Origin: Pseudo-nitzschia pungens
Taxonomy: Eukaryota > Bacillariophyta > Bacillariophyceae > Bacillariales > Bacillariaceae
Direction of reading: 5' to 3'
Assembly (NCBI GenBank): GCA_037355855.1
Contig: CM074763.1
Span: forward strand, 4,154,001-4,218,000
DNA: 64,000 nt
In this document: piece by piece, positions 9,947 through 63,689 of the stretch
How the letters are laid out: every line of letters begins with the position of its first letter
Numbering within the stretch: position 1 is the stretch's first letter
Notes under the pieces: generated by a model
What the model saw: only the letters and a program-made list of their open reading frames with translations
Databases searched by the model: none
Told to the model about the DNA's origin: nothing
Program-made: the position numbers and the translations under genes

Positions 9947-9979
9947 CAAACCCAGCGTACAACCCCAAGCTATCCATCC

Positions 9980-11515: not shown

Positions 11516-11564
11516 TTAGGCTCACCGCAGTTTGCCCACCAGCGGTCCGTTCCTCCAACCCAAC

Positions 11565-17400: not shown

Positions 17401-20271
17401 CTCCATTGCTGACATGCCAGGTGACTTTACTGTTGCTGACAAGTTTGGACATCGTGCTACCCTGGATCGCTTTGAGGTTGACCATGCTGACAAAACCCTT
17501 GGTGTTTTCATCTCCATGGATGGCAATGAGGATGCCCAAATTGCTCACATGGAGTCCCAGTCTAAGGCTTTTGGGTCTCAACTGAAGGCTTCCAAGTGTG
17601 AGAAGAGGGCTTCCCTCTACACATTCAAGTATTCTTTCATGAAGTCTGTTGAGTATCCCATGCCTGTCACTCAACTTGATGAGGGTACCTGGACTAAGAT
17701 TCTTCACCCCGCCCTTGTCCCTGTGCTGAATAAGGCTGGAATGTCCCGCAGCTTTCCCAGACATGTGTTCTTTGGTCCATCTCTTTATCAAGGCTTTGGT
17801 TTCATTCATCCATATCTTCTCCAAGAGTTCAGCCATATTGCCACTATCTTCCAGGAATCTGTCCGGTCCTCACAAACTGGCAGGATTCTGAGGCTCACTG
17901 CTGAGGCTCTCAGGCTTGAATTGGGTGTTCCTCTCCATCTTGGGTCACACCCTATCATCCCTTTGCCTCATACATCACTCCTTGTTGGTATAAGCATGTA
18001 TGGAAATTCTTTTCCATGCATCCTGTGAGCTTGGCTGAAGACTTCCCAGACCCTCCTCTGCTGCGCTCCAATGATTGCTACCTCATGCAAGCCTTTGTTG
18101 ATGCTGGCTTCAGAGGTGCTGACTTGTCCCTCCTGAATCTCATTCGGTTGTCTCTCAGGGCTGTTTCTCTTGCTGATATTTGCACTCCTGATGGAAAAAA
18201 GCTGTCCCCAGTGGCCTTCCAATTGCAGTCTTCCAACCACTTGAGAGATCATCTCGACTGGCCAAGATGTCCCCCACCTTGGCCTCAGCCAGCACAGCGC
18301 CTGTGGACTACGGCTCTTCAGACATGTTTTCTTCCTCCCTGTCCACTCCCTGCAGCTAGAGCCTTGGCTCATTCTTTTCATCTTGGGCCTTGGCTCTCTC
18401 CCCAGACAGCTTTTCTTTGGCCCTGGTACTTGTCTTCCTCTACCAATAGATTGTTCTCCAAATGTTCTACTGGTTGGAAGGTGGGCACCTCCCAAGGAAG
18501 GGGCAGATTCAGATTCACCTCTGAAGTTCTTCCTGAGAAACCTCCCTGTGCTCATGTGCTTGTCTCTCCTGTGACCCATGGTCAAGTTGTTTGAGTTGTT
18601 GGTTCTTCTGATTTTGTCTCTGAACCTCCTGATGTGGATCCTCTGAGGTACAACCCATTTGACTCTCTTCCAGCTTCTCCTGAGGATGCCTTTGACTGTC
18701 TTTGTGAGTCTCCAAGAGTGCTTCTCCACAAGTATTCCCTCCCATATGGGGGTTGTCAGGACCTTGCCGATGCCATTCAGAGTGGCACTGCCAGTGCTGT
18801 TTGTGATGGTTCCTTTGATCCTGCTCTTCTGAGAGGTACTTCTGCCTTCATCCTGTCACCCAATACCTCCACCAAGACTACCTCATTGTTCCTCACTGGC
18901 TGTAACTTTGTCAGTGGCTCCCCTGAGGATCAGTCTTCTTACCGGAGTGAACTGGCTGGCATCATTGGGGTTCTCACTTGTTGCACTGCTCTGGTGGATC
19001 TTTTTGATATTGCCTCTGGCTCTATCACCATTGCACTTGATGGTGACACAGCTCTCAAACAGGCTCAGGGGTCTTGGCCCCTGGTCATTTCCCAGAAGTC
19101 TTTTGATTATGTCTATGTCATCCGCAACATGATTTCTGCTCTTCCCATTTCAGTGCACTTCCGGTGGGTTCAGGGGCATCAAGCTGGATTCTTTCTTGAC
19201 TGGTGGTCCCTTCGCAATCATCAGGTTGATGGCATGGCCAAGGCTTTTCTCTCAGCGCATAGAGCTTCTGCCTACCACTTTCCCAGACTTGTGTTTGAGC
19301 CCTGGGCATTTTCCCTCAATGGTTCCAAGTGTTCAAGGTTTGATCAGAATGCTCTGCATGTTGCCATTGCTGGCCCCCCTCTTCTCCAATACTGGAAGAC
19401 CCACCATGATATTCCCATTCCCCAACCTGTTCTGGGCTCCATCCATTGGTGTGTCCATCAGTCTGCCTTCAAGCGTCTCCCTCCTGGCATGCAAAGGTGG
19501 TTTGTTAAGTTTGCTTCTGGATGCATTGGTGTTGGCAACCAGCTACTTCACTACCAGCATCAGGATCACTCCAGGTGCCCCTTGTGTGATGCAGACAATG
19601 AGAAGGTCTCTCATGTGCTCTCCTGCAAGGACCCTGGGGCTGTCAAGCACAGTGTGTCTGCCTTCAAGGGCCCCTTGCAGCAGAGGCTTGAGGCTGAACA
19701 GACTGATCTATTCTTGGTGGCTGCCATTGTGGATCTTCTCACCAGGATTAGGAAAGGTCAGCGCATCTATCCCTCCTCATATTCCCATGCCATTGCTGGT
19801 GCTGTCAGAGCACAGAGGACCATTGGTTGGCACAACTGGCTTCTTGGTAGGTGGTCTCCTCTCTGGCACCAGATCCAGGCTGACTACTACTCCCAAATTG
19901 GAAGCAAGCGCTCCCCCAGACGATGGGCTACAGCTATCATCCAACAGTTCTTTCTCACATGCTGGGATCTATGGACTTATAGGAATGAACGGCTCCATGG
20001 TTCTGGGGGTACACTTGAGGCTGAACAACACCAATCCCTTGATGATTCCATCTCCTCTGAATTGGCTCTTGGCACAGCCGGTGCTCTCCCCCAGTCACAC
20101 CCCCTTCTCCAAACCCCTTTCCAAGTCCTACAAGGTTATACCCTCACTGCCAAGAGGCAGTGGCTTGCCACTATACACCTTGCCAGGAAACAGTATGCAG
20201 CTCCTCCCCCACCAGTGCAGCCATACCAGCGAGAGGCTGCGCTGTTGCGAGCTTGGCTTACTGGATCTTAG
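14438..20271 (+). pseudogene. LINE A ORF2 (APE-RT-RNase H), frameshift and nonsense
   Basis: APE endonuclease residues are visible: N75 (FQNIGP), E107 (YAEHCLNE), D256-x-N258 (DQNAD), and S328-D329-H330. RT: D815 in NDAKGCYDRI, the GCGQGNGIGPTLW block, and FVDD with D926-D927. RNase H and a CPLC...H...C finger follow. Compared with LINE C, one base is lost near 17,945 (ggtgtcaca reads gggtcaca), so the first frame ends at 18028. Reading resumes in another frame, meets a TGA at 18592-18594 where LINE C has an Arg codon, and continues open to TAG 20269-20271. It nicks target DNA and copies LINE RNA when intact; this copy is dead. Confidence 0.93.
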
Positions 20272-20576
20272 GGTTGCTTCCCCCTTGTTCCTTGGTGTTA
20301 TCCACTATTTCCCTGCTCCCCGTCCTGTCCAACATTATGATTCTGGGAATTCTTCCAGTTTCTTCTTCTTCCCCCTTTTTTATTTCTCACAGGTCCCTGT
20401 TTTGTGGGACCTGTTTTTGTTTCTTTCCCTGCTTGATGTTCCAGGTTTGTTTGGCAAAATTGTCGTTCTACCACTTGGGGTCCTGACTCTTTGATGGAGG
20501 CGACGTTAAAGTCTGGTTACAGACTGAGTAATTTAGTTCCACCTGTGGTGGTAAAGTTATTTAAATACGTATATTA
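20272..20576 (+). promoter_or_regulatory. LINE A 3' UTR with conserved hairpins
   Basis: Hairpin AGTCTG-GTTA-CAGACT at 20510-20525 and CCACC-TGT-GGTGG at 20539-20551, then ttatttaaatacgtatatta. Both hairpins recur in B, C and the divergent tail near 6.65 kb with changed but paired bases. By analogy with stringent LINEs they may be the RT recognition site. Confidence 0.7.
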
Positions 20577-23269: not shown

Positions 23270-26200
23270 ATGCCTCCCCCTCCAACTAAGGGGTGGCCCA
23301 CCTCCCAAGCAGCTTCCCGGAAGAAAAGATCCTCCACGCCTCCTTCTTCTGCTCGGTCTGCCTCTGGGGCTCGGTCTAACAAGCGCCCATTTGTGCAAAA
23401 GACCCCTCCAAGACATTCTAGTGTCACCTCTGCTCTTACTACTCCCTCTCCTACTCTTGATACCAGATCATCCTCTTCCTCTGCCTCATCAGCCTCTTCA
23501 TCCTCTATGAATGGGTCTTCTGTTGATGATATGTCTTCATCTTCTTCTGTGTCCTCATCTGCAGGTGTGCTTTCTGATGTTGAGATGCTTGGCACTGAAT
23601 CTGCACCAGGGGAATCTGCACCAGGGGACACTGCACCAAGGGATTCCTTGCAAACTTCTTCTCTGTCAACAGCTTCTCAGCTAGGCTCCCAGGAGTCAGG
23701 TCCTCCGCCGTCAGGTACTCTGTCAGGTTCTCAGTCGTCAGGTACTCTGCTGTCAGACCCCAAGATGATAAGCTCCCAGTCCTCAGGCTCCCAGTCCTCA
23801 GGCTTCCAGCAGCAGGGCTCCCAGCAGCAGGGATCCCAGCAGCAGGGCTCCCAGCTGTCTGGACCCCGGCCCCCAGTCTCCCAGCAGCCAGGATCCACCC
23901 CGGCAGGCTCCCAGCTGCCAAAGGGCTCTGGGACCTCAGGCAAGTTCCCTGCTTCATCTATCCTCAAGCAGTCTACTCTTGCCTTTTCCTCTGCCCAGAA
24001 GTCTGATCCCTCTCAGCAGCAAGCACGCCAATCCCAACGCCAGGAGGCTCTGGCTGCTGCCAACAGGGCTCATTCCGCTTCCTTCCTCTGGTGTTTTTAT
24101 GGTAAGGGCCCCTGTTCTGGCAAGGCTCCTATCCCATCTGCAATTCATGCCTTTCGAAAATCTCCAACTGGTAACCGGTTATGGGCTGGGTGTCCAAGCC
24201 CTACACACTTCTTCAGCAAGAAGGAGGGTAAAGACAAAAAATCCATCCATGATATTTGCCGGACTGCCATCCCTCCTGTTTATGCTCAGGTTTTTCCGGA
24301 CACTCCAGACTGGCGCAATGCCTCTGTAGCTTCCTTGGCTTCTATTGCCTCTGCTTGCTTTCAAGGCTCTGCCCCAGCCTGGACCAAGCAACCATCTGGC
24401 CAGGCTCTGAAGAAATGTCTTATTGGTTTGGTCAAGATGTCTCCTGAGTGTTTTGATGACCTGTATTGTGAGGGCAACCTTTTGCCTAGCACTGAAGGCA
24501 AAGTATGGTGGGCAGCCAATCAGGTGCTTGGCTCTCACTGGCATTTCAAGAAGCGCCCTCCTACACCTGCGCCACCAGTGGCTGATGATGCTTCCACTTC
24601 CAAATCTTCCACTTCCAAATCAGTGTCCTTTCTTCCTGGTGGTGGTGATGCTACTGTCTTGTCCTCTTCTGCTGGGCATTTCCTCCAACGCCGAGGGGTT
24701 TGCTCCAGTGATTCTAGAGCTCCAGTGGATGTCACTGCTGGCACCAAGTGTTCTCATAGTTCTTATGTCACTCTGTCCCTTCCAAGGTTGATGTCACAAC
24801 GCCCTGGGGAACTGTATGATGAGCTGCTCAAGTCTCTCAAGGAAGCTTTGGATCTTCTATGGACTGTTGACAAGCGTCTGGTGTTGTATGTTTTTCCCTC
24901 CAGAGCCAGGCTCAACCCCAAGGCCAAGCCTGTTACCAAGTTTTGGACGACACTTCCTGACAGGAAGACCTTGGAATTGTATGTTGCTCAGCTCTGGCTT
25001 CGCAGTAGAACTGCTCCTCATCTACGCTTCTTTTTGGGACACAGTGCTTCCCTGGAGAAACTCTTTTCAGCACAATTGCTCCAGAGGCTCAGAGACCGTG
25101 ACATGGACCTGAAATATGACCACATACAGGCCCCAGTTATTGTCACCTGTGGCTTTCTCCTTGGATCTTACATGCAGAGTTTTGATCTTGACCACTACAA
25201 CGAATTGCTTCAGACTCATCCCAGGTTTCAGGCATGTCCTATTGCTGTTATCAGGAAGAATATCAGCCTTGACAACTCCAGAACTCCTGATCCCAATCCG
25301 GTTCTGGCTGCTCATGTTTTATGTGATGCAACAAAGCGCGCCCAAACTGTTAAGCTCCTCAAAGCCCAGTTCAACCGTTGCAAACCTTCAGACATTGCCT
25401 CTTTACCTGATGGTAAATTCTACAAGTTTATTGAGACAGCTACCAATCCTTCTGACAGACCTCTTCCCCCCTCCAAGCTCAAGACTGTTCGCCAGGCTAA
25501 GCACCGCCAAGCCAAATTTATTGAGAGCCATGAAACTGCTCCTGTTCTGGGGGTAGTTGATCTTGATCTTCCAGTTGACTTGGGCCAAGGGCTGGGTTTG
25601 AAGACACTGCGCAGTGTGCTTCTGGGTATCAGAACCCGTGACAATTGGTCATGGCCTCTTTTTCTTTCTGTTGATACCAGTTCATACCGAGGCGAGATCC
25701 TTGCTTTGTACAACATCACTACCAAGGCTGAAGCAATGGCCATGTTGTCTTTCCTGCCTATTTTTCTGGAAGCTCAGTATGGTTCTTGTGTTCGACAATG
25801 GTTCTCTTCTGAGTGCTTGACTGAAATGGAAGCTTACCATTGGGATGATGCAGTCAATTGTGTTGTGGAAACTGCACCTGCTGCAGATCCAATGCAGGAT
25901 AACTCTCTTCCCTTTTTTGGTGATGGGGATGCGCGAGATTGGGAACTTGTTGATGATGACTTGTCAGTTGACCTTGCTCCTGATCTCACTTTTGATCTGG
26001 ATTTGCACTTTAACCTCCAAGCCCGTGCTGACAGTGGTGGTGGAGGCTTTGATGACTCTCAATCCATGGATACTTTAGCGACTGGCACTTCCAATCTTAC
26101 TGCTGTCCAGGCCTCAGCGCCTGCAGGTGCTGTTCCTCCTGGCGGTGATCCTACCCATGTGGCCAAGGCTGATGCCTCCCCTGGTATCTCTCCTGTTGTT

Positions 26201-26464
26201 CCCCCTGAAGTTCCTGACCCTCCCCATGATGCCATGGCTGGTGACCTCCCTGTGGCCTCTCCTGAGTCCTCACCTGCAGTTCCTGCTGCCGGTGGTGGGG
26301 AAGATGCAGCATCTGCATTGAGGCTTGGAGTTGCTGCAATTGCATTCTCTTCCAGTCATGATGCTAGTGTCAGTGATTTGAGCCATGCCAATGTCTCTAC
26401 CAAATCAGCTCCGGCAACTCTTCCTTCCGTGCGACAGACTCGGTTTCCTTCTGATCATGGTTAG
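23270..26464 (+). CDS. LINE B ORF1 protein (unknown fold)
   Basis: The start is chosen at ATG 23270 (MPPPPTKGWPTSQAASRKKR), which resembles the start of LINE C ORF1; the frame stays open 45 bases further up. It is about 1,064 residues. The N-terminal third is Ser/Pro/Gln-rich with a GSQQQ repeat. The core is FLWCFYGKGP, GCPSPTHFFSKK, PSGQALKKCLIG, then SVSFLPGGGDATV and CSHSSYVTLSLPRLMS. An acidic Asp-rich tail (RDWELVDDDLS) follows. No zinc knuckle was seen. It probably coats LINE RNA as other LINE ORF1 products do (inference). Its stop overlaps the ORF2 start. The reading frame is undamaged. Confidence 0.88.
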   Translation: MPPPPTKGWPTSQAASRKKRSSTPPSSARSASGARSNKRPFVQKTPPRHSSVTSALTTPSPTLDTRSSSSSASSASSSSMNGSSVDDMSSSSSVSSSAGVLSDVEMLGTESAPGESAPGDTAPRDSLQTSSLSTASQLGSQESGPPPSGTLSGSQSSGTLLSDPKMISSQSSGSQSSGFQQQGSQQQGSQQQGSQLSGPRPPVSQQPGSTPAGSQLPKGSGTSGKFPASSILKQSTLAFSSAQKSDPSQQQARQSQRQEALAAANRAHSASFLWCFYGKGPCSGKAPIPSAIHAFRKSPTGNRLWAGCPSPTHFFSKKEGKDKKSIHDICRTAIPPVYAQVFPDTPDWRNASVASLASIASACFQGSAPAWTKQPSGQALKKCLIGLVKMSPECFDDLYCEGNLLPSTEGKVWWAANQVLGSHWHFKKRPPTPAPPVADDASTSKSSTSKSVSFLPGGGDATVLSSSAGHFLQRRGVCSSDSRAPVDVTAGTKCSHSSYVTLSLPRLMSQRPGELYDELLKSLKEALDLLWTVDKRLVLYVFPSRARLNPKAKPVTKFWTTLPDRKTLELYVAQLWLRSRTAPHLRFFLGHSASLEKLFSAQLLQRLRDRDMDLKYDHIQAPVIVTCGFLLGSYMQSFDLDHYNELLQTHPRFQACPIAVIRKNISLDNSRTPDPNPVLAAHVLCDATKRAQTVKLLKAQFNRCKPSDIASLPDGKFYKFIETATNPSDRPLPPSKLKTVRQAKHRQAKFIESHETAPVLGVVDLDLPVDLGQGLGLKTLRSVLLGIRTRDNWSWPLFLSVDTSSYRGEILALYNITTKAEAMAMLSFLPIFLEAQYGSCVRQWFSSECLTEMEAYHWDDAVNCVVETAPAADPMQDNSLPFFGDGDARDWELVDDDLSVDLAPDLTFDLDLHFNLQARADSGGGGFDDSQSMDTLATGTSNLTAVQASAPAGAVPPGGDPTHVAKADASPGISPVVPPEVPDPPHDAMAGDLPVASPESSPAVPAAGGGEDAASALRLGVAAIAFSSSHDASVSDLSHANVSTKSAPATLPSVRQTRFPSDHG
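26457..26464 (+). promoter_or_regulatory. ORF1 stop / ORF2 start overlap ATGGTTAG (LINE B)
   Basis: Same 8-base overlap as in LINEs A and C. It decides the ORF2 start, although the ORF2 frame is open for 72 bases upstream. Confidence 0.8.
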
Positions 26465-29400
26465 CTCTTCTGGTATGAGGTGTGATGGGATGCCTTCCAA
26501 TCCAAATCCCATCAATGCTTCTCCTGTTTCTCCCTTTTCCCCCTCCGCCTCTTCCCCTGTCTCTCATTTTGTCCAATTAACTCTTCATGGAGACTCTCTT
26601 GCTGCTAAGGATTCTGACAGTTTTGGTCATTCCTTCCCTCAAGCTCCATCCTATAACTCCACCATCATCACTTTCCAAAACATTGGACCACAGCGCAGAG
26701 CTGCCTTTATGTCCATGTCCAAGCACAACGCCCGTCAATTTGTCAAGAGCAATGCCAGTGTGGCTCTTTTTGCTGAACATTGTTTGAATGAATCCAAACT
26801 CCTGCCCTGTGATCTTTTCAATCGGCGCATGAAGAATGTCAGTCCCTCAAGTTTTTCCTATCTTGCTAACAACAAGCATGAAGCTTCTGCCTGCTCTTGG
26901 CTTCAGCCTGGCGGCACAGGTTTTTCCATTGACCAGCTGTTCAGCTCCCACAAGGTTGCACATGGAGCTGATCCATCTGGTCTTGGCAGATGGTCCTTTG
27001 TCAAGTTTCAGGGCAGGGATGGCTACAATGTCACCATGTTTTCTGCCTACTGCCCAGTTGAAAATGATAGGGATCTTGGCTCAGTCTGGAATCAACAGTA
27101 CCGATACTTTCAAGCCGCTGAAAATCTTTTCAGGCCCAATCCATGCATTCTCTTTCTCAGGGATTTAACTGCTGCCCTTCAAGTCTGTCTGGGTGCAGGT
27201 GATCAAGTCATTGTTGGGATTGACCAGAATGCTGATGTCAGGACTGATGGCTTGTCTTTTGAGCTCAAGGCTCTTGGTTTCAGAGATGCCATTCTTACCC
27301 TTCATAGTACGTCTTCTCCTCCTGCCACTCACAACCGCAACACTACCAGAACACCAATTGATGCCATTTGGGTCTCTGAGAATGTTGATGTTCTCAGGGC
27401 TGGGTATTGTCCCTTTGGAGGTGCCCATGGTATGGAATCTGACCATAGACTGCTTTGGATTGAGGTTTGTAATTGCAGCCTCATGGGCAAACATTTGCCA
27501 CCTCCTGTGAGATTCTCTCATTCCAAACTCCAGTCCTCCCACCCTCATCTGCGACAACGGTATTTCAAGCGAGTGAGGCACAGCTTTCTCAAGGCTGGAG
27601 TGTTTTCTCTCCAAGCTAAGCTGGAGCACCTACTGGCTCAGTTTCAGTCTGGGGATATTTCTGTGCGCACTGATCTCATCACCACATATGAAGTACTCCA
27701 TGAAACCTCTACCTCTCTCAGGCTCTCTGTTGAACAAAACCTCTGCCACACTAGAGCTGGTTTGGTTCCATGGTCACCTAAGCTGCAAGTCTATCGTGAT
27801 ACCATTGACTTTTGGCGGCGTGTTGTTAAGTTGAGACAGGGTGTGTCCACCAGTCATACTGTTTTGAAAAGGTTGGCCTGCAAGCTTTCTCTCTACAAAG
27901 GAGAACACAGTGACCTTTCCAGTGCTCTCCTCCATCTGAAACAAGCTTACAAGCAATACCGGGCAGTGAAGAAATTGGCCCCCTCATGGAGAGACTCCTT
28001 CAATCAAGGCCTGGTGGATGCACTTCTTGCTGAAGGCCAGCCTCACAACCAGCATGCTTCCCAGATTCGTGCCAGGATGCGCAGGGAACGTCTTCAACGA
28101 GAGCTTGGTCTCGCTGCTCGGTCTATTCGGGGACGTGTCAACAAGTCAGCAGTCTTGCGCGCTATTGCAGTTGGCCATGATGGTGTTGAACAGGTCTTGG
28201 AATCTCAGTCTACTATGGTTCCAGCTATGGCTGAATCCAATGTCCGGCGTCAACAGCAGTGTATTGGCACTCCTTCCATGACTCCCTCCTTCATTCAAGA
28301 TTTTGGCTACCTAGGCACTGCCCATGCTGCTCCCCAAGTCCTTGATGGCACATACATTCCTCCTCCTGCCACTGACAAATACCTTTCTGAATTTCTTTCC
28401 TGTCTCAAAGTCCCTGACTCTATTCTGAGTTTGCCCCCCTTTGACTATTCAGTGTGTCCAGCTGACAATGCTGCTGCCTGGAAACGCCAGAGGGAACGCA
28501 CAGCAAGTGAACCTTCTTGTTTGAGTTTTGCCCACCACAAGGCATTTGCCCTGGATCCCCAGCTGAACAAGTTTGACACTCTCCTGAGATCCGTCCCTTT
28601 GATTGTTGGCTTCTCTCCTTCTGCTTGGCAGGTCATCACTGATGTTGAGATCTTCAAGAAACCTGGTGAATATAGAGTGGATAAGATGAGACTCATCCAG
28701 TTGATGTCTCCTGAGTTCCAAATCAACAACAAGATGATTGGCAGACGCATTCTTGCCCATGCTGAACGTGCCAATGCCGTGGCTGTTGATCAACATGGAA
28801 GCAGGAAACATCACAAGGCCATCAACACCTGCCTGAACAAGAAGCTCATATGTGATGTGTTGCGGCAGAAGCGCAGATCCGGTGCTGTTGCTATGAATGA
28901 TGCCAAGGGCTGCTATGATAGGATCTCTCATCCCATTGCAGGTCTCACTCTCCAGAGCTTTGGGGTTCCTGCACATGTGTGTGAGGTTCTTTTGTCTACT
29001 TTGCAACTTGCCAAGCACCACATCAAAACTGGTTTTGGTCGGTCAGGTCCTGTGTATGGTGATGAACCTGTTCCTCTCAGTGGTTGTGGCCAAGGCAATG
29101 GTATTGGTCCAACTCTTTGGGCTTTGGTGTCCACAATTGTCTTCCGAATGATGCAACAGGCTGGGCATGGTGTCCATCTTCTCACTTCATTGTCACTGCA
29201 ACTGGTTTCTCTTGTGGGTTTTGCCTTTGTGGATGACACAGATTTGTTTTGTGCTGGCTCTGATTCCTCCACATCTGGTGAGGAATTAGCTGTTGACTTT
29301 CAGGAAGCTCTTGACCGGTGGGCTGGTGGGATTATTGCCACTGGTGGTGCTATTGAACCTGCCAAATCCTTCTGTTATTTGATTGATTTCAAATGGAATG

Positions 29401-30690
29401 GATCCGGTTGGGACTATCGCTCAATTGCTGACATGCCTGGTGACTTCTCTGTTGCTGACAAGAATGGCAATCGAGCTACCCTGGATCGTTTTGAAGTAGA
29501 CCATGCTGACAAGACCCTTGGGGTTTTTATCTCCATGGATGGCAATGAGGAAGCACAGATTGCTCACATGAAGTCACAGTCTCAGTCTTTTGGCTCTCAG
29601 CTCAAGGCTTCCAAGTGTGAGAAGCGCGCATCCCTCTACACCTTCAAGTATTCTTTTATGAAGTCTGTTGAATACCCCATGCCTGTCACGCAACTTGATG
29701 AGGCCACTTGGACTAAGATAATTCACCCAGCTCTTGTTCCTGTGCTGAATAAAGCAGGGATGTCACGGACATTTCCCAGACATGTGTTCTATGGTCCTTC
29801 CCTCTATCAAGGCTTTGGATTCATCCATCCATACCTCCTCCAAGAGTTCAGTCATATTGCCACCCTCTTTCAGGAATCTGTCAGGTCCTCACAAACTGGT
29901 AGGATTCTCAGGCTCACTGCTGAATCTCTACGGCTCGAACTTGGCATTCCTCTCCATCTTGGTGTCACACCATATCATCCCTTTGCTTCATACGTCACTC
30001 CCTGCTGGTACAAACATGTGTGGAAGTTTTTCTCTGTTCACCCTGTGAGCTTGTTTGAAGACTTCCCAGATCTTCCTCTGTTACGTTCCAATGACTGTTA
30101 TCTCATGCAAGCCTTTGTCAACTCTGGCTTCAGAGGTGCTGACTTGTCCCTCTTGAATCACATGCGCATGTCCCTCAAGGCTATTTCCCTTGCTGACATT
30201 TGTACTCCAGATGGGAAAAGACTCTCTCCCATGGCCTTCCAGCTGACATCCTCCAATCACTTGAGGGATCATCTTGACTGGCTGAGATGTCCTCCATCTT
30301 GGCCTCCAGCAGCAAAGCGCTTATGGACTAAGGCACTTCAGACCTGTTTTCTTCCCCCCTGTCCACCCCCTGCAGCCAGGGCACTGGCTCCTTCTTCACC
30401 TTGGGCATTGGCTCTCTCCCCAGACAGCTTATCTCTGGCCTTGGTTTTTGTCTCCATCCACCAACAGAATATTCTTCAAAACTTCTACTGGCTGGATTGT
30501 GAGCACCTCCCAGGGCAGGGGCAGATACAGGGTCACTTCTGACCTCATTTCTGACAAACCAGCCTGTGCTGATGTGCTTGTCTGCCCTGTTATCTGTGGC
30601 CAAGTTGTTCGAGTGGTTGGGTCCTCAGCCTTTGTTTCCGAACCTCCTGACATGGATCCTCTGGTGTACAATCCATTTGATTCTCTTCCA

Positions 30691-30695
30691 GACTC
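30691..30695. repeat. 5-bp TSD (gactc), left of DNA transposon
   Basis: gactc at 30691-30695 and again at 37646-37650. The uninterrupted LINE C has one copy (ttccagactccccag on its sense strand). Confidence 0.9.
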
Positions 30696-30728
30696 TACCG
30701 TTCGCGCTACGGTGTAAAACCCTATTTT
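30696..30728 (+). repeat. left TIR of DNA transposon
   Basis: TACCGTTCGCG then ACCCTATTTT at offsets 24-33. It also holds a small palindrome, taccgt...acggt. It pairs with 37613-37645. Confidence 0.85.
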
Positions 30729-31046
30729 TGTGCATAATCTAAGTAAAAAATATTCAAAATATACATACACCAATATCGAATATAAATGAACACGTGCTTA
30801 CCATTTTTCAGCACATCACCAACGCTGACGTTGAATTTTGGAAATTATAAGCCTTTTGGTTACAATGGCAACGTAGGAATTCAGTCCTGCAACTCCTTTT
30901 CACTCCAGTCATGGATTGATTTCTTGTGATGCCAACATCAAAACTTCATGTCTTTCGATTGAAACTCTTCTTCGAACGCTATTCATTTGACTTGTTTTTA
31001 CTCCTTCAGAGTTAACGTATTGCAACTATTGAGGCATCAGCAGAAA
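30729..31046 (+). promoter_or_regulatory. transposase leader region
   Basis: Non-coding, AT-rich stretch between the left TIR and the transposase ATG. A pyrimidine-rich tract ending in tactccttcag at 31001-31011 could be a 3' splice site, so a small upstream exon is possible. No promoter motif is recognised. Confidence 0.35.
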
Positions 31047-34000
31047 ATGAACACATTCCACTGGCAAAATGATCCTCAGCGTCAGTTACGCGCCCCAAAT
31101 TGGCAGCAGCAGTCATGTTCAGCAATGTGGCGATCGCCATTGCATCCGAGCATGCATCCGGCAGATTTGTTGACTCCTCAGCAATATGACGGGTATTCAC
31201 CTACCAATTGGTTGCCCTGCTTTCCACTCCAACCTCTGACTCGACAAGATCTGCAACAGAGAGGAAATAGGCAAGGGCTGCAACGACAGAGAGAAGAATG
31301 GAGAGAGCAACAAAGAGAGATAGAACAAGAAAGGCAACAAGAACGAGAGCAAATGGCAGAGCTGTGGCGACAGAGAGGATGGATAGAGCAACAGCGAGAT
31401 AGAGCGCATCGGCCACAGCAACAAGAGCAATTGGTGGAGGAGCTGTGGCGACAGAGAGAATGGACAGGAGAGCAACAGCGAGATAGTAGAGCGCATCGGC
31501 TGCAACAACAAGAGCAAATAGAAAACCTATGGGAATGGACAGAACGACAGCGAGATAGAGGGCATCGGCTGCAACAAAAAGGGCAAATGGTAGAGCTGGG
31601 GCAACAGAGAGAAAGAGCACATTGGCCACCACATCAAGAGCAAGTGGAGGAGTTGTGGCAACAGAGAGAGACAACCAAATGGAGAGACCAGCGGCAAAAA
31701 GACGAGCAATCATGGTATGGGCCATGCTGGAGAGAGCAACGGCAACAAAAGCAACACGACAACAAGGCGGCGACGCAACAAAGGGTTGAGTCACCATGGA
31801 GTGCAGCTCAAAAGGTGGTGAGATTCACAAAGGCGGTGACCGCGACATATAATTGGAATGAAGAGAGCCAGACACCCCTCCTTTTGCATCTGAAGGCAGA
31901 GAACCGTTTAAATCAAAGAGGATGGGCAAGATCAATGATGGGCATGTCCGATACAAAGACTGATGGGGAGGCATTGCAATACTATCACTTACTAGTCAAC
32001 AGCAGTCCACCTTCAACAAGACACGTCGAAATCATGGATGCTTTTGGATACGCATTTGACATGAATTCGAGTCATACCCATAATGCGTTGGTCAAGAAGC
32101 GCAAGATTTCTGTTGAAAAACCAATTCATCCGCAGCGAGGTGCAGAGCTTTTCCGAACACCGGGAACAGAGAAGAAGCGGAGACCTGTGTCTTCCGGGGA
32201 GAGACGTGTCACATTTAGTGATGTTAAGGCCATGAAAACACCAAACCACTTCACGAGGCTTCAAACCAATCTAGATACAACCTTGAGGCGCCTTGCTCCA
32301 GAAGTGACCGAAAGCACTCGAAAAAGCGCAGCTGAGCATGTGAAGGTGACAGCGAAGTTCACTCAGCTTATCCTAGACTTCAAGCGTTTGGATACAATAC
32401 CATTGCTTCAAATTCTTGCTGGAGACAGTGACATTGAGATCACTAGCAAGGGAGTAATTGATGACTTGCGTGAGAAGGCAAAGGTATACTGTGCAGCGGA
32501 GCAAATGCTGTCGAAGAAGAGATACAGTGGAAGCATTGAGTGCCAACAAATGATGGCAGCAGGTGTTGCAATGGTACCAAGTATCTCGATGGAAGCAGCG
32601 CAATACCTCATTGCAACCATTCGCCACAGTCTCTTGGTTGAGCTTGGATATAATGCAACGCCTGAAGAAGTTGCTCGGTCGTCTCCCTCCTCTTGGAAAA
32701 TTAAGGGAGCGCTTGCTCGTTTGGCAGCAAGCTGTCTTGCAATGAAACTTGCTATTATTGATGCAGCAAAGTACGTATATCTTGCTTGTGACAAAGGACA
32801 TAAAGATGGTGTAGATCACTTTGTCAAAATTCTTTCCTGCTGGGATAGACAAGCAAAGAAGGTGGAGTTTTTCATGCTTGATATGGATGGCGCAGGTAGC
32901 TCAGATGAAGATGCTGCGGACGCAGTCTCCTTTTCAATGGCACAGAAAGAAGTAGGGAAGAATCTATCAGGAATCGCAACAGATAGTGGCGGCGGAGGGA
33001 CATTGGAAAGTTTCTTGTTGGCCTTGCAACGTAGGGGTGTTGTTGAGGATAATGGGCTCAAATTTGTGAGTCCGTGCTCTCTCCACTGTCTCCAACTTAT
33101 GTTTGCGCTTCCTGTAGAGAAATCTCTTGGTTTGGGAGGTCTCCAAACAAGAAACGCAATGCAGCTATTACACTCGATGCATGACCTTGAAAAGTACTTT
33201 CCCCGAGAGGTCTGGAAGCAGATCGTTGCTGATAAGATCACCGAACTTGGCTTGGATCTTGATGTTCCAAAAGCAATGCCAAAGCCTGTGACGACAAGGT
33301 GGTGGTGGCTCCATGTGTCTGCTGATATGGCAATCACATATTGGTCCGTGTGGAAAGGAGTTGCAAAAGACTGCATTGCAACCTTTGGAACTACATCCTA
33401 TGCAAACATTGTCTCCTCAAGTCTCGAGGCCATGATGAAAGAAGAAGTGTATTATGTTGATATCTTGTTCATCAGGTGTTATGCAGCCTTCATGATCAAT
33501 CCACACTTCGAGTTCTTGCAAATGAAAGGCCAACAGTCACAAGTCGCCGGATTCAATAGCGAAAGCATGCTTGTCCGGACCTTCTTAATGGGAAAAGATA
33601 TCCAGTCGCTCCAGGAAGGTGGGTGGAGGAAAAACAACTGTTTTAAATCAGTTGTCGCTCATCTTAGTGGCCAACGATGGCCAACAAAAAAAGAACAAGA
33701 TGCCATTGACGAAAAGCGGCAAGCACTCCTTGAAGCGTTTGGTCCAAAGAATTTTGTGACGAAAGAGAATAAAGCGCAAAAGATGATTAAGTCGTTAGTT
33801 AGAGAACGCCGGCAACGAAATGAAATCCATATGATCATTCAGTTGCACAAGGAGTCCAGGAAAGAAAACTATTGGGTAGACCTCAAAGATAACACAAGCA
33901 ACACACTTACAGCTATCCATTCCCTCTTCGGGTTCTCGAGGCGCAGAAAATGCTCAGAGAAACGTGGAACCAGATTAGCAACTAGCAAAGAAAAGAGGGA

Positions 34001-35621
34001 AGAATTAGGAGCACTTGGTGAAGTTAGTCGACAGCAATTTGATCTGGAATATAAAGAGAATGAACGCAAGATGACTGACATAGATGAAAAGCTTTCGAGC
34101 ATTCAGCTCGGAAGGAAAGAAAACTTGTTGCAGACTTTTGAAGTTGCTCTGGATGACAACGATCGCAGCTTTAACAAGGATCAGTTCAAAGGTCCCCTGA
34201 AAGTTCTATTTGATTCCAAGGGAGATGAAGAGTTCGATACTATCAGAGTAACAACGGCGCTGCTGGAGACAAAGCTTGCTGAATTAGCCTTGGAGATTGA
34301 AGAGCTGAAGCTTGAGTTGCGGCAACGACTTGACAAAGAGCTAGTAGAAGGCCCATCATTGTCGCAAGAAGATGAAATGGTGGAAGAGCAAGAGATAGCT
34401 ATCAATGAGAACAGCGCTGTAGTCGAAGATGCTGTCGAAATCAACAGAGACTTCCAGGACATCATTAAGCGCCAAACAGATATTTTTCTTACCCTGGCGA
34501 AGCGACAATTCAACAAGCACTTCCCCAGATGGGCAAATCAGTTGATATTTTTTGGGCTTGCATCTGAAAAGGAGACAGCAGAAGTTGTTGCGAATTTCCT
34601 TCTTGGTAACAGCCTTGAACAATTCAATAACGTAGTTTTTGAATCACCTGTTCACGGTCAATCGGTTGATCTTGGAGAGTTTGCAACTTATTTGATTGAA
34701 ACGTGTACCCCGGAGAGCTTATTGGATGCGCAATCGACAAACTATTTCCAAAATCACAGAGTGGGTATCGCGAGACTTGCCGAAGGCCATGATTTGTGGG
34801 GAGAAGATGTCGAAGAACAAGTGAAGCTCCTGAAGGACTTTGTGGAGGACGCCATATTACCGGTGCCATCCAATACACAATTTGTTGAGCTTTGCATCAA
34901 GGAAGGGATGTATGTTGGGAAGGCAAATAGAACTGAAGCATCCCGCTCTGTTCTTGGTATCATCCGCACGTTCCTTGTACGGGAAGCGAATGCCCGAGCA
35001 AGGGAACACGCCCAACACCGAGAATTAAAAGCAAATCAGTACTGCAACAAGGGGAAGATAGGTGAGAGGGAAATGCATCTTAAATCAAAAGAGGTGGACA
35101 AGGAGACTCGAATCAATCCGCGTGGAAGGTTTAAAACACAGGAGATCTTGAATATTTTGGACTCACTTATTATGGATGACAGCGAGAAAGACATTTCTCC
35201 CGAGAAGGAAGCAAGAATAAATCGCTTGATGAAGAAGCTCTCTGAACAGGATTTACATTATGCACAGAGGAAGAAGACAAGATTACTCCAGAAGGTGAGA
35301 GATGGGAAGAAAAGAAAAAAGAAACAAAACAAACTGCAAAGGCGCCAAGCTGTCGTACTCACCGACACAACCCTCGGTCGGATTCCCTATAGCAGTCTAG
35401 CCAGAGTTCACATGGACGAAGTAAAGAAAGAACTCGAGGCACGTGATGCTGATTTTGATGATGAATGGGGTATTAAGCGCCTTGTGACTGCATTGAAAGA
35501 AGCTTTGAAGAGTTTCCATGGCAACGAGAAATACATGAAAGAGTACTCGAGATCATTCCATCCACTGACTGAAGAACTACAGCAACGCTTTCCTTTCACC
35601 ATCCTCGAAAGCGAAGTATGA
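31047..35621 (+). CDS. giant RNase H-fold transposase (hAT-like), 1,524 aa
   Basis: The start is chosen at ATG 31047 (MNTFHWQND); the open frame upstream has no ATG. Residues ~65-235 are a Gln/Arg/Glu-rich coiled coil with about four units like RAHRLQQQEQ-VEELWRQRE. A basic linker with KKRK follows (residues ~350-400). The putative catalytic core has D582 (ACDKGHKDG), D646 (IATDSGGGGTLES), a CSLHC motif (C677, H680, C681) and TTRWWW (R751-W752). These match in order the D, D, C-x-x-H and TRW blocks of hAT transposases. The third acid is uncertain; E1297 in ANRTEASRS is one candidate. A long helical region (~950-1150) and a lysine-rich segment (~1410-1440) follow. It would cut and paste the element. 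The usual hAT length is 600-900 aa. No stop or shift is seen. Confidence 0.8.
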   Translation: MNTFHWQNDPQRQLRAPNWQQQSCSAMWRSPLHPSMHPADLLTPQQYDGYSPTNWLPCFPLQPLTRQDLQQRGNRQGLQRQREEWREQQREIEQERQQEREQMAELWRQRGWIEQQRDRAHRPQQQEQLVEELWRQREWTGEQQRDSRAHRLQQQEQIENLWEWTERQRDRGHRLQQKGQMVELGQQRERAHWPPHQEQVEELWQQRETTKWRDQRQKDEQSWYGPCWREQRQQKQHDNKAATQQRVESPWSAAQKVVRFTKAVTATYNWNEESQTPLLLHLKAENRLNQRGWARSMMGMSDTKTDGEALQYYHLLVNSSPPSTRHVEIMDAFGYAFDMNSSHTHNALVKKRKISVEKPIHPQRGAELFRTPGTEKKRRPVSSGERRVTFSDVKAMKTPNHFTRLQTNLDTTLRRLAPEVTESTRKSAAEHVKVTAKFTQLILDFKRLDTIPLLQILAGDSDIEITSKGVIDDLREKAKVYCAAEQMLSKKRYSGSIECQQMMAAGVAMVPSISMEAAQYLIATIRHSLLVELGYNATPEEVARSSPSSWKIKGALARLAASCLAMKLAIIDAAKYVYLACDKGHKDGVDHFVKILSCWDRQAKKVEFFMLDMDGAGSSDEDAADAVSFSMAQKEVGKNLSGIATDSGGGGTLESFLLALQRRGVVEDNGLKFVSPCSLHCLQLMFALPVEKSLGLGGLQTRNAMQLLHSMHDLEKYFPREVWKQIVADKITELGLDLDVPKAMPKPVTTRWWWLHVSADMAITYWSVWKGVAKDCIATFGTTSYANIVSSSLEAMMKEEVYYVDILFIRCYAAFMINPHFEFLQMKGQQSQVAGFNSESMLVRTFLMGKDIQSLQEGGWRKNNCFKSVVAHLSGQRWPTKKEQDAIDEKRQALLEAFGPKNFVTKENKAQKMIKSLVRERRQRNEIHMIIQLHKESRKENYWVDLKDNTSNTLTAIHSLFGFSRRRKCSEKRGTRLATSKEKREELGALGEVSRQQFDLEYKENERKMTDIDEKLSSIQLGRKENLLQTFEVALDDNDRSFNKDQFKGPLKVLFDSKGDEEFDTIRVTTALLETKLAELALEIEELKLELRQRLDKELVEGPSLSQEDEMVEEQEIAINENSAVVEDAVEINRDFQDIIKRQTDIFLTLAKRQFNKHFPRWANQLIFFGLASEKETAEVVANFLLGNSLEQFNNVVFESPVHGQSVDLGEFATYLIETCTPESLLDAQSTNYFQNHRVGIARLAEGHDLWGEDVEEQVKLLKDFVEDAILPVPSNTQFVELCIKEGMYVGKANRTEASRSVLGIIRTFLVREANARAREHAQHRELKANQYCNKGKIGEREMHLKSKEVDKETRINPRGRFKTQEILNILDSLIMDDSEKDISPEKEARINRLMKKLSEQDLHYAQRKKTRLLQKVRDGKKRKKKQNKLQRRQAVVLTDTTLGRIPYSSLARVHMDEVKKELEARDADFDDEWGIKRLVTALKEALKSFHGNEKYMKEYSRSFHPLTEELQQRFPFTILESEV

Positions 35622-36330
35622 ATAACATTGATAACTAGTGGATACAGGTCAAATCGATCAGTTTCTCTCGTCATTGTCGACTTTCAAAGCTCGAATTTGT
35701 TGCGTTTACGGACTGCGATTATTCAAAATTATGAGCCGTCCGTTGGTAGTGCTGCTCTACATGGAACGCAAGAGCCTTCGCTTTGCTTCCCACAAAAATC
35801 TGTCAATCAGTTGTATCCAAAGTCATGAAAGGGCTTCAAGGTTGATTGTCGAATGTGTTTTTTTCGATGTTTGGTAATCTCTGTTGTTTCTCTTACTTCA
35901 CATGGAGATTTCAGTCGATGTGAGAATACCAATGGGGGAAACAAAATCACAAGAGCATTAACATTGCAGCCTGTTGGCACTTGCGGAAATTGTCAGTGTT
36001 AAATATCAAAATATCAAAATTGTAGCTCCCGGGACTTGTGCACCCAATGAAATTAATTCCTACCAAATGCTGCTGAAAACGGACCAATCAGAAAATACTT
36101 TCTATTTTCAGTGGCGTTGCTCTTGTCATAAGAAGGTTGGACGTGAAGGGACGAAAGGAACAAGTAGAAAGTGTACAAGAAACTACTGAAAATGAACGCG
36201 GAAAGCAAAGAAAAAGGAAGCAAAGTTTGCAAAGGCTGTGCTCAAATAGTTTCGTAACGCTGTATTGCGCGTCATAAAGTTGCAACTGGATAAAAAATAT
36301 TAACGAAAGATACAATACGTCTCAGTCACC
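35622..36330 (+). other. non-coding spacer between the two transposon genes
   Basis: About 0.7 kb, AT-rich, with short ORFs of under 80 codons and no recognisable motif. Nothing is supported here. Confidence 0.5.
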
Positions 36331-36585
36331 ATGGGATTATTCGCAGAGGAAGTAAGTGACTGTGATGACATGAGCCTGAGCTGATGTGTCGTAGATTTTG
36401 ATGTGTATATTGTAATCACTTGCAAATCCGATTGTCGCCTTGCTCATTTACACACATGAAATTTTGGATTTAATTTGTCCAAAGCAGAGCCGCGAAAGCA
36501 AATTTTCACCTAAGCCATCCCAACAGTTCCAAGTAAGTATATCACCTCAAGAGCATTGTTGTAGGATGTATCATAAATTCTAACG

Positions 36586-37329
36586 ATGGTGTCGTTTTCT
36601 TTTCAAGCCTTTCGTACGACCATTGAGAATGGCGTACATGTCAGCCGACGCCTCGGCACAGAGCAGTTTCCACTTGCTGAGGAAATGTATGTTGGTGATC
36701 TGATGAAATTCTTAAAGCATTGCTGCTGTCCGGATCAAAGTAACCGGTGTGTCTATTGCAGTGATGGTTACGATTACCGTAACATTCCCAGAGGATTCAA
36801 GCTTCATTTTGATCAAGAGACAAGCAGCGTCTGGCACTCTAATTCCACTCCATCACAAAAATGTGCTTCGGTCTACGTTGATGGAGGTCGAGTTGCTTTC
36901 AACAAGCTCAACGAAGGGATTAAAATACCTATACGGGAAGGGACTACAATCTATTTTCGGCCTGATCTCAATCGAAGATCTAGTCTCCTTAACATGGAGT
37001 TTCGCGTTGTTGCGGAGAATAGTACGGTGATCGATCTTACTCATCATTCTATAGAGGTGAAGGACGAGCCACGCGAAGAAACCCCTGTCGCAATTGCTAC
37101 AGCATTCAAGCCATCCTTTTCTATCCCGCAGAGCATCAAACTTGGCGTTGATCCGCCGTCAAGCCCATTTTCGCAGACACCTACTAACAGGCCTTTGCGT
37201 TGCGATCCTCCTGGATCCTCTCCGTGCTTCAGGTCTCCTGAAGCTGAGAGTTTGCCACCGAGAGCAACAATGGTACTACCGGTACATTCCGTCCCCCTGA
37301 ACAACCCAAAGAAGCACAAAGTTGACTGA
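36586..37329 (+). CDS. transposon accessory protein with SIM, SUMO-site and NLS-like motifs
   Basis: The open frame from ATG 36586 is 247 codons. Features: a Cys cluster (C46-C48, C55, C58) that could bind zinc; a beta-rich middle (VYVDGGRVAFNKL, IREGTTIYFRP); VIDLT at 148-152, a SUMO-interacting motif; VKDE at 158-161, a sumoylation consensus; a Pro/Ser-rich tail; and a C-terminal PKKHKVD, an NLS-like string. An upstream spliced start is possible: ATG 36331 with donor gtaagt at 36352, an exon 36488-36536 and an acceptor ending at 36607 keep the frame. If so the N-terminus would differ. No family is recognised. It may help target the transposition complex in the nucleus (inference). Confidence 0.6.
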   Translation: MVSFSFQAFRTTIENGVHVSRRLGTEQFPLAEEMYVGDLMKFLKHCCCPDQSNRCVYCSDGYDYRNIPRGFKLHFDQETSSVWHSNSTPSQKCASVYVDGGRVAFNKLNEGIKIPIREGTTIYFRPDLNRRSSLLNMEFRVVAENSTVIDLTHHSIEVKDEPREETPVAIATAFKPSFSIPQSIKLGVDPPSSPFSQTPTNRPLRCDPPGSSPCFRSPEAESLPPRATMVLPVHSVPLNNPKKHKVD

Positions 37330-37612
37330 TGTTGCCAGTAACCTGGAGAACAGATCTCTGTTGCGTACGGTAGGGGTTCTGTAGTCTATCAGGCGTCGTG
37401 TAAATACCACCACGAGGAGAACAAGTGGTAAGATTAGCTGCGCTCTAGTAGGTACACCAGAAGTTGTTGCACAAGCAAGTACGTCCTGTATTTTCGATAC
37501 TCAATACTGTAATTAGAGAGTTTTATTATTACTACTTAGGAGATCTAAATTATTGCCTTTGGCAACTAGCCGGCGCATTTATTGTCATCATAAAAAGTAT
37601 TCAGTTTTGAAT
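37330..37612 (+). other. right subterminal region of DNA transposon
   Basis: Non-coding. It holds an internal gcgtacggtag at about 37365, resembling the right tip, and no gene. Confidence 0.4.
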
Positions 37613-37645
37613 AAAATAGGGTCTGAATATAATACGCGTACGGTA
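37613..37645 (-). repeat. right TIR of DNA transposon
   Basis: The reverse complement reads TACCGTACGCG, then ACCCTATTTT at the same offset as in the left TIR. Confidence 0.85.
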
Positions 37646-39250
37646 GACTCCCCAGTAGATGCCTTTGATGCACTCTGTGCGTCTCCAAGAGTACTTCTCC
37701 ACAAATATTCCCTACCACAGGCTGGCTGTCAGCACCTTGTTGATGCTATCCAGAGTGGTACTGCCAGTGCTGTATGTGATGGTTCATTTGATCCGGACCT
37801 TCTCAGAGGAACTTCCGCATTCATTCTGTCACCCAATACCTCCACCAAGACTGCTTCATTGTTCCTCACTGGCTGTAATTTTGTCAGTGGATCCCCAGAG
37901 GATCAATCATCCTATAGGAGTGAACTGGCAGGCATCATTGGGGTTCTCACCTGTTGCACTGCTCTGGTGAGTATCTTTGATATTGCTTCTGGCTCTATCA
38001 CTATTGCTCTGGATGGTGACACAGCTCTCAAACAGGCTGAGGGATCATGGCCATTGGTTATTTCCCAGAAGTCTTTTGATTATGTTTATGTCATCAGAAA
38101 CATGATTTCTGCCCTGCCAATCTCTGTGCACTTTCAGTGGGTTCAGGGACATCAAGCTGGAATCTTTCTTGATTGGTGGGCCCTTCGCAATCATCAGGTT
38201 GACAGCATGGCAAAGGCATTTCTCTCTGTCCATAGAGCTTCTGCCCATCACTATCCCAGACTTGTGTTCGAGCCCTGGGCTTTTTCTCTCAATGGATGCA
38301 AGTGTTCAAGGTTTGATCAAAATGCTTTGCATGTTGCCATTTCTGGTCCTCCTCTTCTTCAATATTGGCAGACCCACCATGACATTCCCATTCCACAACC
38401 TGTTTTGAGTTCCATCCATTGGTGTGCCCATCTGTCTGCCTTTAAGCGTTTACCTCCTGGCATGCAAAGGTGGTTTGTCAAATTTGCTTCTGGATGCATT
38501 GGTGTTGGCAACCAACTCCTTCACTACCAGTATCAGGATCACTCCAGGTGTCCCTTGTGTGATGCAGACAACGAGAAGGTTTCTCATGTGCTCTCTTGCA
38601 AGGATACTGGGGCTGTCACGCATAGTCTGTCTGCCTTCACGGGACCACTGCAGAAGAGGCTTGAAGTTGAACAAACTGATCCATCATTGGTGGCTGCCAT
38701 TGTGGATCTCCTCACCAGAGTTCGGAAGGGCCAGACCATTTATCCATCATCCTGCTCACTTGCAATTGCGTCTGCTGTCAGGGCACAGAGGACTATTGGC
38801 TGGCACAACTGGATTCTTGGTAGGTGGTCTCCTCGCTGGTATCAAATCCAGGCTGACTACTACTCCCACATTGGAAGCAAGCGCTCTCCCAAACGATGGG
38901 CCACAGCTATCATCCATCAGTTCTTTCTTACCTCCTGGGATCTTTGGACATATAGGAATGAACGACTCCATGGTCCTGGGGGTACCCTTGATGCTGAACA
39001 ACACCAATCTCTTGATGCTTCCATCACCTCTGAATTGGCCATTGGTGCAGCTGGTGCACTTCCCCAGTCACACTCCCTTTTGCAAACCCCTTTCCAAGTC
39101 CTACAAGGCTACACCCTGACTGCCAAGAGGCAGTGGCTTGCAACCATCCACCTTGCCAGGAAGCAGTATGCAGCACCTGTCCAACCAGTGCAGCCATACC
39201 AACGAGAGGCTGCTCTCCTCAGAGCCTGGCTTACTGGACCTCAGGGTTGA
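37646..39250 (+). pseudogene. LINE B ORF2, 3' part (RNase H and zinc finger)
   Basis: The ORF2 text resumes at the second gactc with DSPVDAFDALCASPRVLL. RNase H acids are visible in SAVCDGSF, SYRSELAG, ALDGDTAL and NHQVDSMAK. The finger CPLCDADNEKVSHVLSC and the C-terminal AWLTGPQG follow, with TGA at 39248-39250. The frame is intact but cut off from its start by the transposon. Any product would need a start inside the transposon end. Confidence 0.93.
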
Positions 39251-39573
39251 TTACACTTTGTACCTTGGTTTTGTCTTCTGTTCTTGCTTCTCATCCTGTC
39301 ATTTACCTTTTGATACTGGATCTTATCCCAATATCTCCATTCCCATCTTACTTTCTCTCAAGTCCCTATTTTGTGGGACTTGCTTGTCTTTTTCCCTGTT
39401 TGATCTTCAAGGTTTGTTTGAAAAATTTGTCGTTCTACCACTTGGGGTCCTGACTCTCTGATGGAGGCAACGTTAAAGTCTGGTTACAGACTGAGTAATT
39501 TAGTTTCACCTTTGGTGAATAAAGTTATTTAAATACGTATATTATTATTATTATTTAAATACGTATATTATTA
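39251..39573 (+). promoter_or_regulatory. LINE B 3' UTR with conserved hairpins and tail
   Basis: Hairpins AGTCTG-GTTA-CAGACT (39477-39492) and TTCACC-TTT-GGTGAA (39505-39519). The string ttatttaaatacgtatatta with (tta) repeats occurs twice in the tail. Confidence 0.75.
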
Positions 39574-41467: not shown

Positions 41468-41992
41468 TGTAATGATTTTGCTCATCACCAAAACAGGGAT
41501 AGCAGCAACAACAGTACATCACGGAGTGCCAGCAAATGGTTAGACTACAGAGGATACTGTTCAAGCGCTATTGCATATACCATGAGCACACTAGTTACCA
41601 CCCTAGAGGTACATTAGAGATGTCAAGTATCGATGCCGGGCATGATGTGTTCTTTTAGAGGTTTGAGAGTATTCCAAAGAGTGAGAGCTTTCCGGATGGA
41701 GCTCTGAATAATGATTCCGTGTTGTATCGCTGATTCGTATGTTGGTAAAGGGTCAGGGTACGTAGGTCCAGTACTTAATTCAACGTACTGACCATACCTT
41801 TTACTGACACCTGTAGCACCAGTACTGTAGCGTACGCGCTGTATGCTGTAGTACTGTACTTGATCAATGCGCTCGCTAACTTGCTCGCTTGTGAACTAAC
41901 TGCAGGGGCTGGGTATCTGGTTATAGTACAAATCGTACACAATGACCATATCCCGACGGTAAGTAGCATAATATCGAGGTGAAATATCTTCA
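41468..41992 (-). repeat. 3' LTR of non-coding LTR element (intact)
   Basis: On the sense (minus) strand it runs TGAAGATATTTC...AAAATCATTACA. It preserves the empty sites for the gag-only element (gcata at 41573-41577) and for LINE C (41897-41914, one base different). Confidence 0.85.
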
Positions 41993-47319: not shown

Positions 47320-47636
47320 TGTAACACTCTAGGGTAGAATTAGATGGAGTGGTACGCGATAGAGGTATTTTAATAAAGAATAATTATAAAATTGTGTTAC
47401 GAAAGAGAATGGTTGAATACTTTACGAGATGGGAATGATTCCTTGAGTATCAATGAGCGATCAAGATTATCAGCGAGTCATAAGACTCTTGATATTTTAT
47501 CTTGATATTTGTCAGTATCCGTTGTATGTGTATATATACCAAACATACATACATGAATACTAAATATATTGGAGTACATGCGGGATTCAATAATCATTTA
47601 GAGCCCTCGTAGAGTAACATACGGTAGCATGTTACA
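47320..47636 (-). repeat. 3' LTR of gag-only element
   Basis: TGTAACACTC...GCATGTTACA on the plus strand; the ends are the inverted repeat TGTAACA. Identical to 50092-50408. Confidence 0.93.
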
Positions 47637-50408: not shown

Positions 50409-50413
50409 GCATA

Positions 50414-63653: not shown

Positions 63654-63689
63654 TTACGTATTGTACATGTTAGTGCACCAGTCGAAGAT

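Follow-up and report, generated by a model that had tools for sequence, protein, structure and literature searches.

A 64,000-nucleotide stretch of the genome of the diatom Pseudo-nitzschia pungens (hereafter the window; GenBank assembly GCA_037355855.1, contig CM074763.1, positions 4,154,001 to 4,218,000 of the forward strand) contains a real DNA transposon of 6,950 bp that has been recently active and carries two genes. The first, open reading frame 1 (ORF1), encodes a 1,524-amino acid transposase, and the second, ORF2, encodes a 247-amino acid accessory protein. We consider it quite probable that the element is autonomous, moves by cut and paste, and belongs to a deeply divergent lineage with the hAT fold, in which ORF1 is a DDE transposase with a Hermes-like split core, integration takes place at GANTC, and ORF2 acts as a helper.

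The element occupies positions 30696-37645 of the window, where it interrupts a copy of a long interspersed nuclear element (LINE) at 24038-39550 and is flanked on both sides by GACTC. Another LINE copy in the window, copy C (minus strand, ∼50751-59294), matches the flanks of the element with ∼94-95% identity and runs uninterrupted through the homologous site, which reads CCAGACTCCCC. Because copy C keeps this site with a single GACTC and no element, the insertion is real and its borders are exact, as an earlier, sequence-only reading of this stretch had claimed. The ends and the 6.95-kb size given in that reading are also borne out, as the element has terminal inverted repeats (TIRs) of 11 bp with the consensus TACCGT(T/A)CGCG. 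The features of the ends and of the empty site are as follows.

30691-30695, no strand: left target repeat GACTC, a direct repeat with 37646-37650 that is single in LINE copy C.
30696-30706, plus strand: left TIR TACCGTTCGCG, matching the right end at 10 of 11 positions, with ends common to four genome copies; its start may shift outward by one or two bases because the target is palindromic.
30719-30728, plus strand: left subterminal repeat ACCCTATTTT, at element positions 24-33, from the end-to-end comparison.
37613-37622, minus strand: right subterminal repeat ACCCTATTTT, inverted and at an equal distance from its end, from the same comparison.
37635-37645, minus strand: right TIR TACCGTACGCG, from the end-to-end comparison, on the opposite strand to the left one.
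37646-37650, no strand: right target repeat GACTC, a direct repeat with 30691-30695.
52650-52655, minus strand: empty site AGACTC in LINE copy C, where the alignments of this copy to the two flanks join.

There are three long LINE copies in the window, all with large ORFs (12103-20576, 24038-39550, and 50751-59294). The transposon lies in the second of them, and the third (minus strand) keeps the empty site.

The genome sequence searched for further copies comprised 66.9 Mb in 28 contigs, and the copy counts given here are lower bounds. At least three further full copies are present (C3:6644444-6651385, C6:2481983-2488924, and C8:3464189-3474756), whose proteins are 98% identical. DNA searches with the ends of the element found at least four left and at least four right ends of this family (family A) on three contigs with different flanks. 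Two more elements are related at a greater distance: one on contig C12 of 6,665 bp, with ends TACCGTGTGCGCGG and a transposase that is 66% identical over 1,380 aligned codons, and one on contig C9 of 6,081 bp, with ends TAGAACTCCAACATCC and TAGTACTCCAACTTCC and a transposase core that is ∼26% identical. Partial or decayed pieces are found on C3, C6, and C7. The six elements with both ends that are counted below omit the pieces at C3:4405743-4414346, for which ends were sought and none found, and C6:3751865-3753374, and the C7 piece, which has one end only, is counted apart. A genome search for short non-autonomous copies found none, since the pattern GANTCTACCGTNNGCG occurred at 11 places that were all ends already known, and its reversed control occurred at 0. 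In the C8 copy, an insert of ∼3.6 kb is nested between the two genes. This insert (within C8:3464189-3474756) has flanks with a 17-bp overlap and an open frame resembling the second ORF of the window LINE, so that by sequence it looks like a 5′-truncated LINE insertion.

At the DNA level, ORF1 is 99.89-99.96% identical among the C3, C6, and C8 copies, which shows recent movement. The transposase is also under purifying selection. Between the window ORF1 and these three copies, the nonsynonymous divergence (dN) is ∼0.010-0.011 and the synonymous divergence (dS) is ∼0.039-0.040, and between the window ORF1 and that of C12 these values are 0.25 and 1.9, respectively. All four family-A copies and C12 retain open frames; a single in-frame stop is present in the C9 transposase.

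Each of the six two-ended elements is flanked by a pair of identical direct repeats (GACTC, GAATC, GATTC, GAATC, GACTC, and GATTC), and the single C7 end adjoins GAATC. As GANTC starts at only 0.33% of positions in the loci examined, its presence at every element is not due to chance. The four left and four right family-A ends were located by DNA search independently of GANTC and so do test the target rule; the pattern GANTCTACCGTNNGCG includes GANTC and does not, and the C9 ends were initially located with GANTC imposed as a condition. In C3, C8, C12, and C9, four of the six elements, the direct repeat measures exactly 5 bp; in the other two, the window copy and C6b, chance matches lengthen it to 6 and 7 bp. 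Because it ends at exactly 5 bp in four elements, the duplication has a maximum length of 5 bp, and the 8-bp duplication that the sequence-only reading had wanted checked in other copies is excluded. That reading had named gactc as the target-site duplication; the GACTC on both sides stands, but its length of 5 bp is not proved, because GANTC is palindromic and duplications of 5, 3, or 1 bp all fit. The three possibilities hold for all six elements: 5 bp with ends TACCG, 3 bp (ANT) with ends CTACCG, or 1 bp (N) with ends TCTACCG (in C9, the ends would begin CTAG or TCTAG under the 3- or 1-bp possibility, respectively). The target is GANTC under each of them, since the host supplies the outer G and C in every case and the LINE site without the element reads GACTC. 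We favor 5 bp on the basis of the predicted hAT-like fold described below and of the hAT duplications of 5 to 9 bp described in the literature (including PMC12730594). Near-palindromes surround two of the GANTC targets (TTTCGAATCGAAA in C3 and AAAGATTCTTT in C6b), and the target might be a longer dyad than GANTC.

ORF1 contains the D, D, CxxH, and RW blocks in the order that the sequence-only reading had recognized, followed by an E, and a 23-row alignment with its relatives confirms this arrangement. In hAT transposases, the D, D, CxxH, RW, and E blocks occur in this same order. The parts of ORF1 are as follows.

31047-35621, plus strand: ORF1, a single open frame for the 1,524-amino acid transposase, from the ORF list, dN/dS against C3 and C12, and its relatives.
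31251-31669, plus strand: Q/R-rich coiled-coil repeats in the N-terminal region, tandem repeat families D1-D3.
32790-32792, plus strand: putative catalytic D1 (D582), D in 20 of 23 rows and a gap in 3, at the end of strand 1 (residues 578-583, from the model) of the RNase H-like fold.
32982-32984, plus strand: putative catalytic D2 (D646), D in 22 of 23 rows and a gap in 1, after strand 4 in the model.
33075-33086, plus strand: CxxH block (C677 and H680), with C and H in 23 of 23 rows.
33297-33302, plus strand: RW block (R751 and W752), with R in 19 rows, Q in 1, and a gap in 3, and W in 19 rows and a gap in 4, of 23.
33309-34856, plus strand: predicted insertion domain, mostly helical, ∼residues 755-1270 in the structure model, with approximate borders.
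34887-34889, plus strand: putative catalytic E (E1281), near a helix start in VPSNTQFVEL, E in 18 of 23 rows and a gap in 5.

In the predicted model of ORF1, an RNase H-like DDE core is split by a Hermes-like helical insertion domain. The alignment with Hermes spans model residues 148-923, with 392 residues aligned, and the insertion domain lies inside this range. Based on the model, ORF1 is a predicted DDE transposase with the triad D582, D646, and E1281. Three other glutamates, E799, E800, and E839, were weighed as candidates for the third catalytic position and set aside, because the residues at these sites vary between relatives in the 23-row alignment. What had been taken for a C-terminal extension of ∼750 residues is not one, since it holds the insertion domain and the putative catalytic E1281, after which 243 residues follow. 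The Q/R coiled coil noted earlier is present, but it is family-specific tandem-repeat DNA: it is gapped in six relatives of ORF1 (36-45% identity) and was not seen in the N-terminal part of C12 that was examined. In the N-terminal half of the C9 transposase there is a CCHC-like knuckle, CPICNEQHLLVDC (L015:1788-4178); none was seen by eye in the window protein.

ORF2 (36586-37329, plus strand, inside the element; from the ORF list and its homologs) was absent from the sequence-only reading. It has homologs in the C12 (56% identity) and C9 (38%) elements and six in the database, one of which is labeled Psemu1, which we take to be Pseudo-nitzschia multiseries. The gene lies downstream of the transposase gene on the same strand in C12 and family A, and upstream on the opposite strand in C9. 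That it has stayed with the transposase in either arrangement points to ORF2 as part of the transposition machinery, and from these sequence comparisons it would be a helper protein. Searches of Pfam and of the PDB with ORF2 gave no match; inspection by eye raised the suspicion of an FHA-like fold.

Several results weigh against the hAT-fold explanation given at the outset. The Foldseek TM-scores of the window model are low (TMt 0.32-0.41), in part because of its large insertions, and a closer fold may exist among transposases whose structures have not been solved. At the sequence level, a Pfam scan of the window protein at E-values up to 10 gave no family that reached its cut-off and no hAT model, the best E-value for the 21 members of set A4 was 0.042 in a search at E-values up to 1, again with no hAT model, and no PDB chain matched ORF1 by sequence or profile. 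Comparison by hhalign with ordinary hAT proteins of the same genome gave P values of 0.025 (probability 1.9%) and 0.097 (0.6%), which are not significant and come from three hAT proteins only, similar to one another. The stagger is not fixed by the sequence, as 5, 3, and 1 bp are equally compatible with it. Finally, when the C9 ends were sought as 12-bp TIRs with a free duplication length, there was no excess over shuffled sequence. A 40-bp scan of C9 without a duplication condition found its best inverted pair in the same register, 7 bases outward, with 31 matches; the given ends have 28 matches, and four shuffles gave at most 27. The C9 ends are therefore good, but not perfect.

The marks by which a hAT element is usually recognized have failed here. 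PF05699 (hAT C-terminal dimerisation) was not listed for the window protein at E-values up to 10 or for the 21 members at E-values up to 1, nor was a BED or other zinc-finger model listed in the Pfam scans of ORF1 and its relatives. An N-terminal BED zinc finger is common in hAT transposases, although it is not universal. The sequence-only reading was right that hAT elements usually have 8-bp duplications and are shorter than this one, but the 8-bp mark is not decisive, because the hAT5, hAT6, and hAT7 groups have been described as exceptions (PMC12730594 and PMC9004415). The hhalign alignment with a P value of 0.025, though non-significant, matches up the D, D, and CxxH blocks. Going by the predicted fold, the element operates in the manner of a hAT transposon, and ORF1 most likely shares ancestry with the hAT transposases. 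To all appearances it is a very divergent branch of hAT, so far undescribed, with a GANTC target and a partner gene. The earlier suggestion of a new superfamily or a diverged hAT lineage is thus supported in part: the profile and structure checks that it called for gave a predicted hAT-like fold that aligns with Hermes and no named family at the Pfam cut-off.

Like Hermes and canonical hAT elements, this one has a predicted split RNase H-like core, a D-D-E triad, CxxH and RW blocks, and short TIRs with subterminal repeats. Unlike canonical hAT elements, it has a second gene, and Pfam lists neither BED nor the hAT dimerisation domain. Its transposase is ∼2.5 times longer than that of Hermes (1,524 residues compared with 612 in the literature), and Hermes targets an 8-bp nTnnnnAn (PMC10368747), which is less strict than the GANTC used here, where the duplication does not exceed 5 bp. 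The ordinary hAT elements of the same genome, with 17 PF05699 matches, share the block order with ORF1, but PF05699 and the ATSASSERIFS block, seen in the three that were read, are theirs. Their genes (L045-L051, L053, L059, and L060) are bordered by arrays with units of ∼185-190 bp that obscure the ends. No hAT-type transposon with a GANTC target was met in the literature searched, Repbase Reports excluded, and GANTC also appears in work on bacterial repeats (PMC2229807). Scans of viral contigs with the window protein and sets A1 and A7, and of prokaryote genome contigs with sets A1 and A7, found no relative, although records near the window genome may be omitted from both. Together with the Psemu1 label of one ORF2 homolog, this suggests a diatom source.

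The element could instead represent a separate superfamily, sister to hAT, that shares the ancestral fold and has its own GANTC rule, termini, and two-gene layout, an explanation that we regard as plausible but not probable. There is no sequence-level link to hAT in Pfam, the PDB, or the profile comparison, and the GANTC rule and second gene are common to families that are ∼26% identical in the transposase core. However, superfamilies are usually defined by the ancestry of their transposases, and the Hermes-like core is shared, including its split. In addition, hAT already includes groups with 5-, 6-, and 7-bp duplications (PMC12730594).

Membership in the described hAT5 group is unlikely. Its hallmark 5-bp duplication (Kapitonov and Jurka 2007, as cited in PMC12730594) is compatible with all six elements, as are 3 and 1 bp, so that the two are alike by description if the 5-bp duplication is right here. 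hAT5 is known from invertebrates and fish (PMC9004415), and transposase phylogeny places it among the animal hATs, with hAT5 and hAT6 within the Blackjack/animal lineage (PMC12730594). A member of that lineage should be recognizable as hAT, and ORF1 is not.

Assignment to a superfamily other than hAT is very unlikely for each type considered, namely Transib, KDZ, IS3EU, and a Tc1/mariner type that, like the TBE elements of Oxytricha, would duplicate the 3-bp ANT within GANTC. Transib elements have 5-bp CG-rich duplications and CACTG-type ends. The 5-bp length would suit the window element, but its repeat is GANTC and the ends seen here are TACCG, TAGAA, or TAGTA. KDZ (Zisupton) elements have an 8-bp duplication (PMC12730594), compared with the exactly 5-bp repeat in four of six elements, and no KDZ-type model was listed in the Pfam scans, with the library content for KDZ unchecked. 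The TA..TA termini of IS3EU/GingerRoot resemble those of the window element (in fungal IS3EU, TAYGG..CCRTA; PMC10045372 and PMC12730594). By the same descriptions, however, the usual IS3EU duplication is 6 bp, again unlike the four exactly 5-bp repeats, and IS3EU is not separated from IS481EU in transposase phylogeny. TBE elements duplicate ANT and have GANTC at the junctions of excised circles (PMC6765146), and a 3-bp ANT fits all six elements. In contrast to our elements, TBEs have a Tc1/mariner transposase and telomere-like ends, which were not seen in the six elements, and their junction GANTC occurs alongside GANTG and GANTA (PMC6765146). The chance that these are host genes lying between chance repeats, as the low copy number (at least four close copies) might suggest, is practically negligible, since the empty site in the sister LINE copy and the dispersed copies, which have identical ends but different flanks at four locations on three contigs, speak decisively against it. 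The near identity of ORF1 among three copies also counts against it.

Returning to the divergent hAT-fold transposon, we propose that ORF1 would recognize the TACCG... termini together with the subterminal repeats and release the element from its site. It would then join the two ends to a GANTC target, most probably with a 5-bp stagger whose repair would give the GANTC duplication. ORF2 may help in end binding, target choice, or assembly of the complex. In hAT elements, excision forms hairpins on the flanks; we infer both catalysis and the order of cleavage for ORF1.

The window has several other repeats. A 111-bp inverted repeat pair (63146-63256 and 63546-63657, with a gap of ∼290 bp) is possibly an unrelated fold-back element. 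It lies beside a TACCGTACGCG sequence at 63138-63148 (minus strand), which was considered as a further copy of the transposon and rejected because no adjoining GANTC and no partner end were seen. Near-identical dispersed repeats are found at 41573-41912 and 50409-50748 (99.7%, 340 bp) and at 47320-47636 and 50092-50408 (100%, 317 bp). A tandem-repeat stretch at 9978-11547 has many overlapping self-matches and gives long ORFs on both strands, in several frames.

Transposases of the hAT type are usually viewed as 8-bp enzymes with weak target preference. It is possible, if somewhat less likely than not, that the element represents a lineage of superfamily rank, sister to hAT, with strict GANTC specificity and a conserved two-protein system of hAT-fold transposase and accessory protein. 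A lineage with this predicted fold, a shorter stagger, and an apparently fixed GANTC target, retained across families that are ∼26% identical, would show how the hAT pair of active sites can be re-spaced and made sequence-specific. The recently moved copies with open frames provide a testable system, and a small defined target may be of interest for gene-delivery tools. More generally, the element illustrates that searching by fold exposes transposons that profile libraries overlook.

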